Origin: Chitinophagaceae bacterium
GTDB lineage: Bacteria; Bacteroidota; Bacteroidia; Chitinophagales; Chitinophagaceae
Direction: 5' to 3'
Assembly: GCA_019638615.1 (NCBI GenBank)
Contig: JAHBTL010000016.1
Coordinates: forward strand, 1-64,000
DNA length: 64,000 nt
In this document: one piece after another, positions 8,809-44,562 of the stretch
How positions within the stretch are numbered: position 1 is the stretch's first letter
Layout of the letters: the number at the start of each line of letters is the position of its first letter
Translations under genes and position numbers: made by a program
Notes under the pieces: model-generated
What the model was told of the DNA's origin: nothing
The model's input: only the letters and a program-made list of their open reading frames with translations
Databases searched by the model: none

Positions 8809-8962
8809 AATTCCTCCAGAAACTTTTATTTTAAAAGGTACCTTATTTTCATATTGCTGCCTGAAAATAGTTGATTTACCGATATTCAACAGGTCAATTT
8901 TTTAATTTTTCCCATGTTCCCCACATTTCAATTTTTCCCCTATTTTCCAGGTTCTCTTCCCT

Positions 8963-8970
8963 TACATTTG
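8963..8970 (+). promoter_or_regulatory. -7 element of a dnaX promoter
   Basis: tacatttg fits the Bacteroidota -7 consensus TAnnTTTG and lies 19 nt before the dnaX start codon. The -33 region has only a weak T-rich match near 8941. Confidence 0.45.
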
Positions 8971-8989
8971 CATAAAGCGGTATTGAGGT

Positions 8990-10810
8990 ATGGATAATTT
9001 TATTGTATCAGCGCGTAAGTATCGTCCCCAGACATTTAATACAGTGGTAGGGCAGGCGCATATTACTACTACACTGAAAAATGCCATTAAAAACAAGCAA
9101 CTGGCGCATGCTTTTTTATTTTGCGGGCCGCGCGGTGTAGGCAAAACAACCTGCGCCAGGATACTTGCTAAAACCATTAATTGCGAAAACCAGCAGCCGG
9201 ACGGCGAGGCGTGCAATGAATGTAACTCCTGCAAAACATTTAACGAAGGGACTTCACTGAATATTCACGAGCTGGATGCTGCCAGCAATAACTCGGTAGA
9301 TGATATACGTACCCTGACGGAGCAGGTACGATTTGCACCACAGGCCGGTAAATACAAAGTGTATATCATTGATGAGGTGCACATGCTCACTTCCTCGGCA
9401 TTCAATGCTTTTCTTAAAACGCTGGAAGAACCGCCGCCCTATGCCATTTTTATACTGGCTACCACCGAAAAGCATAAAATATTGCCCACTATATTATCCC
9501 GCTGCCAGATATTCGACTTTAAACGCATTACCCCTAACGATACGGTGGAGCATTTGCAGGAAATATGCGATAAGGAAGGGGTACAATCCAATAAGGCGGC
9601 ATTGCAGGTAATTGCCCAAAAAAGCGAGGGTTGCATGCGCGATGCATTAAGCATACTGGATAAAATAGTAAGCTTTACCAATGGTGAGCTCAGCTATCAG
9701 AATACGCTTGAGCACCTGAATATCCTGGATGCCGATTATTATTTTAAAATGACGGATGCCATGATGGAACAGGATCTTGGCGCTGCCATGCTTTTGTACG
9801 ACGATATCAACCGGAAGGGATTTGAAGGGGATCTTGTATTAAATGGTTTTGCGGAATTTATACGGAATTTACTGGTATGTAAGGACGAAAAAATAGCCGG
9901 GCTGCTGGAAGTAGTGGAAAGCTTTAAAGATCGGTACATTGCTACCGCCAAAAAATTATCTCCTGCCTGGATAATCAGTGCATTGAATATTTTAAATGAG
10001 GCTGAAATCAATTATAAAGCCGCGCGCAACAAAAAGCTGCATGTTGAGCTTACGCTTATTAAGCTTACCTATCTCAGCCAGGCGGTAGAATTGGTAAATG
10101 AATCGGGCATTTCAAAAAAAAAATTAACTGAGTCAGCGCGCCCGGTAGCATTTAAGAGCATTCGCCCGGTAGAGCTGAAAGAAGTTGCTGCCGGCGGGAA
10201 CAAAACAGCCGGGCAGGCTCCGCAGGAAACAGCCGAAGCCCGGCTCAGTATAGAAACAAGTGTATATCCTGTAACCAGCGCGCCTGTGAACGGCGGTTCG
10301 CCTGTTGCAGCACCTGTTAAAACGGAACAGGCTTATCAAGCTGCTACCGCTCCTGCTCCCACACTTGGCGCCCTGCTTAAAATCAGGAAACAGGTAGCCG
10401 AACAAAAGGCACAATCGAATGATGTGATTAAACCCCTGACACAGGAAGCGCTCCGGGCTGCCTGGGAGGGGTATATAGAAAAGCTTACCGAGCAAAAAAA
10501 TCATTCTACCGTAACCAATTTTCGCCTGGCTAAGCTGCGTATCGCAGACAATAAAAGTTTTGAAATAATAGTAGAAAGCAATATTCAGCAAAAATTTGTA
10601 GAGCAGGAAAGAGCCGCGCTGATAGAGCATATGCAAGGTTTTTTTAATAATAAAACCCTGGCATATACCATTATGGTGGAAGAAGCATTGCAGGAAACAA
10701 CCGTGCAGGAGCGCCCGCTGAACAGCCGTGAGCAGTATTTTAAAATGATTGAACAATATCCGCTCATAAAAGAACTCAAGGAAAGACTGAAGCTGGAGCT
10801 TGATTATTGA
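8990..10810 (+). CDS. dnaX: DNA polymerase III subunit gamma/tau
   Basis: The clamp-loader ATPase, 606 residues when read through as tau. Walker A GPRGVGKT is at 46-53, the zinc-binding cysteines are C65, C75, C78 and C81, the Walker B DEVH is at 129-132, and the sensor-1/arginine-finger SRC is at 170-172. Domains I-III end near residue 370; the rest is a linker and a tau-type C-terminal domain. At codons 375-378 there is a run of ten A residues (10114-10123). A shift into the -1 frame reaches TGA at 10129, and loss of one A reaches TAA at 10124, so either slip would give a gamma-like protein of about 380 residues. Confidence 0.96.
   Translation: MDNFIVSARKYRPQTFNTVVGQAHITTTLKNAIKNKQLAHAFLFCGPRGVGKTTCARILAKTINCENQQPDGEACNECNSCKTFNEGTSLNIHELDAASNNSVDDIRTLTEQVRFAPQAGKYKVYIIDEVHMLTSSAFNAFLKTLEEPPPYAIFILATTEKHKILPTILSRCQIFDFKRITPNDTVEHLQEICDKEGVQSNKAALQVIAQKSEGCMRDALSILDKIVSFTNGELSYQNTLEHLNILDADYYFKMTDAMMEQDLGAAMLLYDDINRKGFEGDLVLNGFAEFIRNLLVCKDEKIAGLLEVVESFKDRYIATAKKLSPAWIISALNILNEAEINYKAARNKKLHVELTLIKLTYLSQAVELVNESGISKKKLTESARPVAFKSIRPVELKEVAAGGNKTAGQAPQETAEARLSIETSVYPVTSAPVNGGSPVAAPVKTEQAYQAATAPAPTLGALLKIRKQVAEQKAQSNDVIKPLTQEALRAAWEGYIEKLTEQKNHSTVTNFRLAKLRIADNKSFEIIVESNIQQKFVEQERAALIEHMQGFFNNKTLAYTIMVEEALQETTVQERPLNSREQYFKMIEQYPLIKELKERLKLELDY
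10114..10123 (+). promoter_or_regulatory. A10 slippery run inside dnaX
   Basis: Ten consecutive A (S375, K376, K377, K378) sit at the end of clamp-loader domain III. After the run come ttaactgag: the normal frame continues as Leu-Thr-Glu, the -1 frame reads Ile-Asn-stop, and the other frame stops at once. In Escherichia coli dnaX uses a ribosomal -1 shift, and in Thermus thermophilus slippage on an A9 run; this site resembles the latter in layout. Function is inferred. Confidence 0.55.
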
Positions 10811-10900
10811 CGGAGATACACGGAATAGGCTTTCATTTGCAGTTTTTGCCTTAATTTCGACCTTCCAAATTACATCTTAAACTTAAATTTTATATATAAT

Positions 10901-43359: not shown

Positions 43360-44562
43360 ATGATCAGCATCGGACTTATAAGAGAGGGAAAAATACCTGC
43401 TGATAACCGGGTTGCACTTATTCCTTCGCAATGTAAATGGATACATAAGCAGAGCCAGGGCGTTCGCATTATTGCTCAATCTTCGCCTCATCGTTGCTTT
43501 ACAGATAGGGAATATTTGTCGGCCGGTATAGAGGTAAAAGAAGATGTATCCGACTGCAACATTTTGCTGGGTATAAAAGAAGTACCTGTTCAAATGCTGA
43601 TACCGGGAAAAACCTACCTTTTTTTTTCGCATACTAAAAAAAGACAGGAAAGCAATCGGGAGATGTTCCGGCACATCATTCAAAACAACATCACGCTGAT
43701 TGATTACGAATGTCTTGAGCATGAAGATGGGCAACGCATTATTGGTTTTGGCTTTTTTGCAGGTGTGGTTGGTGCACATAACGGATTGATGGCGTATGGT
43801 AACCGTACAGGGTTGTATCATCTCGAACGGGTGTACAAACAAAGAAGCTTCAGGGAGCTGATCCACACCTATTTCGGTTTGCGGCTTCCTAACGTAAAAA
43901 TAGCGGTTACAGGTTCCGGCCGTGTGGCACATGGCATACTGGAGATTATGAACCTGGTGGGTATACACGAAGTGGAGCCTGACGAATATCTCCATCGCAG
44001 GTTTGCCTATCCCGTATATACCCAGTTAAAAGGAGGCGACCTCTACAGACATACACAGGCCGGAAAGTACAGCCGTATCGATTTTCACGAAAACCCGAGC
44101 CGGTATCAATGTATCTTTCTCCCGTATGCAGGGCAAACAGATATTTTATTGAATGGCATTTACTGGGATCAGTCGGTGCCCAGGTTGTTTGAAAAGGAAC
44201 ATATCACCTCTGATACTTTTATCATACAAACCATTGCTGATATTACCGACGACAAAAACGGGTCGGTACCTGTGAACCTGGGCGATCAAACCATTGAAGA
44301 TCCTGTATACGGGATAGACCGGAAAACATTTGAAAAAACAGCTCCCTATGTTCCCGGCTCAATAGATGTGATGGCTGTAGGCAACCTGCCGAACGAACTG
44401 CCCAGAGATGCTTCACGCTATTTTGGGGAACAACTGATCAAGTACATACTGGAAGACCTGGTTAAAAACGGTTCGCCCATTATAGAAAGAGCCACCATGG
44501 TTAAAAAAGGGCATTTAACTCCGTTGTACAATTACCTGAGCGAATATGCGGGAGAAGATTGA
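43360..44562 (+). CDS. saccharopine dehydrogenase-like (alanine dehydrogenase/PNT-type) enzyme
   Basis: Start ATG 43360 (400 residues) gives MISIGLIREGKIPADNRVAL, the normal opening of this superfamily; the longer ORF from 43246 has no such start. An N-terminal alanine-dehydrogenase-like domain is followed by an NAD loop GSGRVAHG (185-192). The second half resembles NAD-dependent, lysine-forming saccharopine dehydrogenase (Lys1 type), with a C-terminal GSIDVMAVGNLPNELPRDAS motif. The direction of reaction and the role (lysine synthesis or breakdown) cannot be read. It is divergent from the AraC gene. Confidence 0.82.
   Translation: MISIGLIREGKIPADNRVALIPSQCKWIHKQSQGVRIIAQSSPHRCFTDREYLSAGIEVKEDVSDCNILLGIKEVPVQMLIPGKTYLFFSHTKKRQESNREMFRHIIQNNITLIDYECLEHEDGQRIIGFGFFAGVVGAHNGLMAYGNRTGLYHLERVYKQRSFRELIHTYFGLRLPNVKIAVTGSGRVAHGILEIMNLVGIHEVEPDEYLHRRFAYPVYTQLKGGDLYRHTQAGKYSRIDFHENPSRYQCIFLPYAGQTDILLNGIYWDQSVPRLFEKEHITSDTFIIQTIADITDDKNGSVPVNLGDQTIEDPVYGIDRKTFEKTAPYVPGSIDVMAVGNLPNELPRDASRYFGEQLIKYILEDLVKNGSPIIERATMVKKGHLTPLYNYLSEYAGED

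Follow-up and report, generated by a model that had tools for sequence, protein, structure and literature searches.

Does the run of ten A residues in the dnaX gene of this Chitinophagaceae bacterium serve as a programmed slippage site from which both tau and gamma are made? The gene lies in a window of 64,000 nucleotides (the whole stretch of DNA that was analysed), and the full DnaX scores 712.9 bits against the NCBIfam gamma/tau model PRK14971, above the cut-off of 685. The features concerned are these:

8990..10810, + strand: dnaX, tau subunit of DNA polymerase III (PRK14971, NCBIfam), full-length frame of 606 aa
9725..10084, + strand: clamp-loader domain III (Pfam PF12169, residues 246-365)
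10114..10123, + strand: putative A10 slippage run, within TCA AAA AAA AAA TTA
10124..10807, + strand: linker and C-terminal region specific to tau, translated only if the frame is kept
10125..10127, + strand: TAA in the frame reached on loss of one A, predicted product 378 aa
10129..10131, + strand: TGA in the -1 frame, entered when an A is added or the ribosome shifts by -1, predicted gamma of 380 aa

The A10 run in dnaX

The original prediction had put the run at codons 375-378, just past domain III, and the sequence and the Pfam match bear this out: the first A is the third base of codon 375, the other nine fill codons 376-378, and the run starts ten residues past the Pfam end of the domain at residue 365. 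The -1 frame TGA at 10129-10131, ending a product of about 380 residues, likewise lies where it had been placed. The TAA to be reached on loss of one A, put at 10124-10126, is one base off and lies at 10125-10127. The distance from the run is 5 nt to the TGA in the -1 frame and 1 nt to the TAA in the +1 frame; the predicted products would end in S-K-K-K-I-N-stop (380 aa) after a -1 shift or an extra A, and in S-K-K-N-stop (378 aa) after loss of one A. A search of window positions 8900-10900 against Rfam gave no match at E up to 1.

The placement of an A10 in dnaX is not chance. A pattern search of both strands of the bacterium's own genome (7,180,285 bases) finds exact A8 1410 times, exact A9 123 times and A10 at 6 places. 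In the window, each further A multiplies run abundance by about 0.35 (lengths 4 to 6), so that runs of A9 and longer are scarcer than simple extrapolation would give, and such scarcity is expected if these runs slip. Open frames of at least 200 codons contain two of the six A10 places on their sense strand, one in dnaX and one at a second locus (L003); each of the other four is either antisense to such a frame or not within one.

The A10 of this second locus (C12:310004-310013 of the same genome, around base 1500) is in frame, near codon 91 of a 265-codon frame which, from its motifs, we take to be an ABC-type ATPase. One alternative frame stops directly after the run there and the other about 15 codons later. 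Apart from the dnaX A10, the sole exact A9 of the window on either strand is at 43618-43628 (- strand).

The window design is the ‘Thermus’ one, a kind of system already known. As in Thermus thermophilus dnaX, a single full-length frame has an A run past the clamp-loader part and nearby stops in both other frames. The primary paper on slippage in that gene is reportedly Larsen et al. 2000. There are differences, in that the window run is A10 and not A9, the bacterium belongs to another phylum, and slippage here would be deduced from sequence. Excerpts of PMC1088944 describe a Thermus run of nine As, with varying run length in the mRNA, at seven-eighths of the gene, whereas the window run lies at about 62% of its gene; excerpts of PMC5009743 describe both the E. 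coli and the Thermus routes.

A second point of comparison is the set of two-frame dnaX genes detected with GeneTack, for which the portion of Antonov et al. 2013 (PMC3711429) used here gives 17 genes in 12 genera, nine of them with 10 As, and proposes polymerase slippage. Going by that portion, Bacteroidota may be among the nine. The window shares with these genes the A10 and the two products, but the frame order is reversed: tau is the single open zero frame and gamma needs the shift, and the two-frame layout, with gamma in the zero frame and tau elsewhere, is absent. A literature search that had most subscription journals outside its scope brought up no recognised report of dnaX slippage in Bacteroidota, except possibly PMC3711429.

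Run, frames and stops in other dnaX genes

A similarity search provided 211 dnaX loci (the best 80 of 594 stretches, 12 loci of the same genus, and sets of 29, 60 and 30 taken from the higher-scoring part of the matches listed, so that the sampling is non-random), and removal of 10 duplicates left 201 distinct loci. A landmark was set where domain III ends, and the longest stretch of As within the next 70 codons was taken as the linker run. It is 9 or longer in 164 of the 201. The distribution is sharply divided: the longest run is 7 or shorter in 37 loci (A7 itself in only 3), 8 in none, 9 in 29, 10 in 122, 11 in 10, 12 in 2 and 13 in 1. Outside the class, A9 or A10 occurs in 14 of 20 further loci when a wider stretch is taken (130 codons from about codon 340).

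Classes of frame design were counted in 198 loci, three truncated ones (L058, L074, L194) having been dropped. Tau is a single frame with a run of at least 9 in 111. In 49 the gene is split, with gamma in the zero frame and tau in -1, the design of the genes of Antonov et al. 2013; tau of these 49 genes thus needs a shift. One locus (L162) has a run and tau in +1, and two (L067, L202) have a run with tau unlocated. The other 35 have no run of 9 or more and comprise 29 single frames, three genes with an in-frame UAG, one with tau in +1 (L070) and two with tau unlocated. Slippage would thus not be universal even within the phylum. On a FastTree tree of the 198 DnaX N-terminal parts there are at least 18 changes between the single-frame design (111 genes) and the design with an early zero-frame stop (51 run-bearing genes, among them L162 and L067); between run and no run the minimum is 13.

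Two of the loci have other sequences at or near this position. Around codon 371, the dnaX of L028 has a run of seven Gs where many other Bacteroidota carry the A run. In L070, which has no A run, the gamma frame ends TGC TAA AAA and tau is in +1; this may be a frameshift site, an assembly error or decay.

The original prediction had counted a missing run in close relatives as evidence against itself; the run is present in all 12 genus genomes examined, the bacterium's own included, as A9 in 7 and A10 in 5. The -1 frame stop lies 4-8 nt past it in 12/12, and the +1 frame stop at 0-1 nt in 7/12 and at 22-23 nt in 5/12 (L007 standing in for the genus member L091, to which it is identical in this region). 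These genomes also bear on phase variation at the level of DNA, in which run length would differ between cells and switch tau off and on. The spread of run lengths from A9 to A13 among species is what such switching might leave behind, but all 12 genus genomes keep one open frame even though runs of both 9 and 10 occur among them, and dnaX is expected to be essential. Phase variation is accordingly a very improbable reading.

In the linker it is the nucleotides that are kept and not only the lysines, since lysine triplets there (overlapping ones counted) are written AAA-AAA-AAR in 122 of 123 cases (AAA-AAA-AAA 86, AAA-AAA-AAG 36, other 1), compared with 4 of 15 elsewhere in the dnaX genes. Similarly, EKK is written GAA-AAA-AAA 71 times and GAG-AAA-AAA once. 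Elsewhere in the dnaX genes, the N-terminal parts (206,585 nt in all) contain no run of 9 or more, and the C-terminal parts (97,839 nt) contain 3. All three codon phases are found, for A9 and for A10 alike.

The stops were compared with a control in which the search began 60-240 nt further downstream in the 111 single-frame genes. With kinship ignored, the first -1 stop past the run lies at a median of 3 nt, and within 9 nt in 103/111 (control median 33 nt, 21.8%); the first +1 stop, also with kinship ignored, lies at a median of 11 nt, and within 9 nt in 45/111 (control 38 nt, 18.7%). In the split genes, a zero-frame stop follows within 15 nt of the run in 48/49. Judged by these distances, the stops are under selection, the +1 stop more loosely than the -1 stop. 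The original prediction had likewise taken both out-of-frame stops as a mark of selection.

The run could in theory be a mere lysine-rich linker or a result of mutational drift, with any short product as noise. In the 111 single-frame genes, about two thirds of the N-terminal lysine codons are indeed AAA (1558 AAA, 787 AAG), which is in keeping with drift. However, drift is at odds with the synonymous choice in the linker, with selected stops and with a tau that in 49 split genes is unreadable unless a shift occurs, and we give it hardly any credence. Run, stops and selection across relatives together support the proposal that tau and gamma would both be made by slippage.

RNA polymerase or ribosome

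The A10 of the window is probably a programmed slippage site at which RNA polymerase slips, tau and gamma both being made as in Thermus. RNA polymerase copying the run would add or drop an A in a fraction of transcripts. Those with the encoded number of As, or with a change of three in either direction, would give tau (about 606 aa); an added A would lead into the TGA 5 nt past the run and give gamma of 380 aa; and transcripts one A short would meet an immediate stop and give the 378 aa product. Slippage itself, the choice of polymerase over ribosome and the ratio of the products are what we infer from the letters of the gene and its relatives.

The main alternative is that the ribosome slips, much as in E. 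coli dnaX although the run is longer, with tRNA-Lys shifting -1 on the A run and ending at the TGA at 10129-10131 with no stimulators. E. coli dnaX, in the excerpts of PMC5009743 and PMC3711429, has a -1 ribosomal frameshift at A-AAA-AAG with a Shine-Dalgarno sequence and a stem-loop. As in E. coli, gamma of the window would end in the -1 frame soon past the site of the shift, and tau is the full frame. The window run contains A-AAA-AAA but ends AAA TTA, unlike the E. coli A-AAA-AAG heptamer; no Shine-Dalgarno-like sequence is visible by eye upstream of the A10, and the 77 nt downstream (10124-10200; z -0.31) have no unusual structure. The same holds more widely. Among the 161 run-bearing genes, at least 5 of 6 matches to a Shine-Dalgarno-like sequence upstream are found in 21.1%, compared with 15.2% in the control, and the mean z of downstream structure is -0.47, compared with -0.56 and -0.19 in controls; neither is a clear excess, so that a stimulator of ribosomal slippage is not evident.

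The lengths of the runs point in the same direction. The ribosomal heptamer A-AAA-AAN needs only 7 bases, yet A8 is the longest run in 0 of 201 loci and A7 in 3 of 201, and the missing A8 points to the polymerase. The length threshold is not absolute, since for two species of Chlorobium PMC3711429 gives split dnaX genes whose runs have eight and seven As. Polymerase slippage would also be favoured by the occurrence of all three phases, by the missing clear stimulators and by the enrichment of stops in both other frames (for +1, 45/111 as against 18.7%). The A-AAA-AAA heptamer is, on the other hand, contained in an A9 in every phase, as ribosomal slippage would need.

The direction of the shift is an observation that speaks against the polymerase, being uneven: of the split genes, 49 have tau in -1 and a single one, L162, has it in +1. 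This imbalance, and the closer spacing of -1 than of +1 stops, are also expected from -1 ribosomal slippage, although L162 itself, with tau in +1, does not fit it. Taken together, ribosomal slippage seems to us unlikely, though it is the most serious competitor to slippage by RNA polymerase.

In-frame UAG in a Bacteroidales genus and the gamma/tau boundary

The three loci with an in-frame stop and no run (L059, L069, L073) are from Bacteroidales, and in each a TAG stands at the gamma end with tau following in the same frame. Genomes of one order (393) and of one family (149) were searched, and the matches led to one genus, here called g490. A DnaX match at the cut-off was present in 77 of the 79 genomes examined from it, and all 77 were analysed. 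An in-frame stop is found in 73/77, and it is UAG in all 73. The frame stays open for 166-259 codons past it in 72/73, the remaining one (L342) being cut by a contig end. Within the same family, g502 (5 loci), g504 (4), g509 (1) and g505 (1) have neither run nor early stop, g511 (2 loci) has A9 and A10, and in g503 the one locus, L373, combines an 11-base run with tau in -1.

Directly past the UAG, AUW GCA AGR is kept almost without change (L069 3599-3634 and 72 other g490 genomes). The 3' context was examined in 73 distinct 48-nt sequences from 75 loci, with kinship within the genus ignored. AUC, which accounts for 59.5% of upstream isoleucine codons of g490 dnaX, never occurs at codon +1; codon +2 is GCA in 68/73 against a background of 14.5% of alanine codons; and AGA or AGG occupies codon +3 in 72/73 against 7.0% of arginine codons. 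A later CA is kept despite a codon phase that differs between subtypes. Going by codon usage, the nucleotides past the UAG are conserved beyond the needs of the protein and form an RNA-level motif. As to a structure in this RNA, RNAalifold on a MAFFT alignment predicts no pair. A small hairpin beginning near nt 13-14 is no more than a suggestion; shuffles reach its observed mean score in 16%, and pair shuffles give no excess. Rfam gave no match for L069 3400-3900 at E up to 1.

Programmed readthrough of the UAG is the likeliest reading of this arrangement, and g490 dnaX is put forward as a candidate for it. Two other explanations were considered and rejected. Reassignment of UAG to an amino acid is rejected because 14 of 74 UAG-type tau frames themselves end in TAG, which therefore still serves as a stop. 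Among the 45 tRNA genes located in G975 (completeness 100), to which ARAGORN assigned anticodons, none has the anticodon CUA; the set has no tRNA-Ile(GAT) or tRNA-Ala(TGC) and is hence incomplete, and some of the anticodons were read within neighbouring loci. Termination followed by re-initiation at the AUU or AUA past the UAG leaves the other four genomes of the 77 (L346, L357, L361, L362) unexplained. In these the gamma frame ends AGG CYU AGC UAG, tau is in +1 and a similar element lies downstream; by eye, the tau frame has no usual start codon beside the UAG. The four are candidates for a +1 frameshift.

For the regulatory frameshifting of RF2 and antizyme, replacement by readthrough is not known in any organism, as stated in the excerpt of PMC5009743. 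The literature search, again with most subscription journals outside its scope, brought up no recognised report of UAG readthrough in dnaX. Then there is the conserved in-frame UAG with its RNA-level motif in one Bacteroidales genus, which to our knowledge is new. If programmed readthrough is its true explanation, this would be a cellular bacterial gene with two products set by UAG readthrough.

A single observation in one gene thus extends to many genera, with 164 of 201 loci carrying a run that looks selected for slippage, and gamma is probably made and needed in these. A split dnaX, which a gene finder would call broken, may yield tau by slippage. On balance we lean towards the view that the gamma/tau boundary of Bacteroidota is an ‘exchangeable recoding point’, at which a slippage run is common in two interchangeable frame designs but would be replaced in g490 by UAG readthrough with an RNA-level element, and in 4 of 77 genomes there by an apparent +1 shift. 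In the natural series of A9, A10, split frames, UAG and +1, slippage, frameshifting and readthrough may serve the same task, and dnaX would let the evolution and efficiency of these modes of recoding be compared on one gene.
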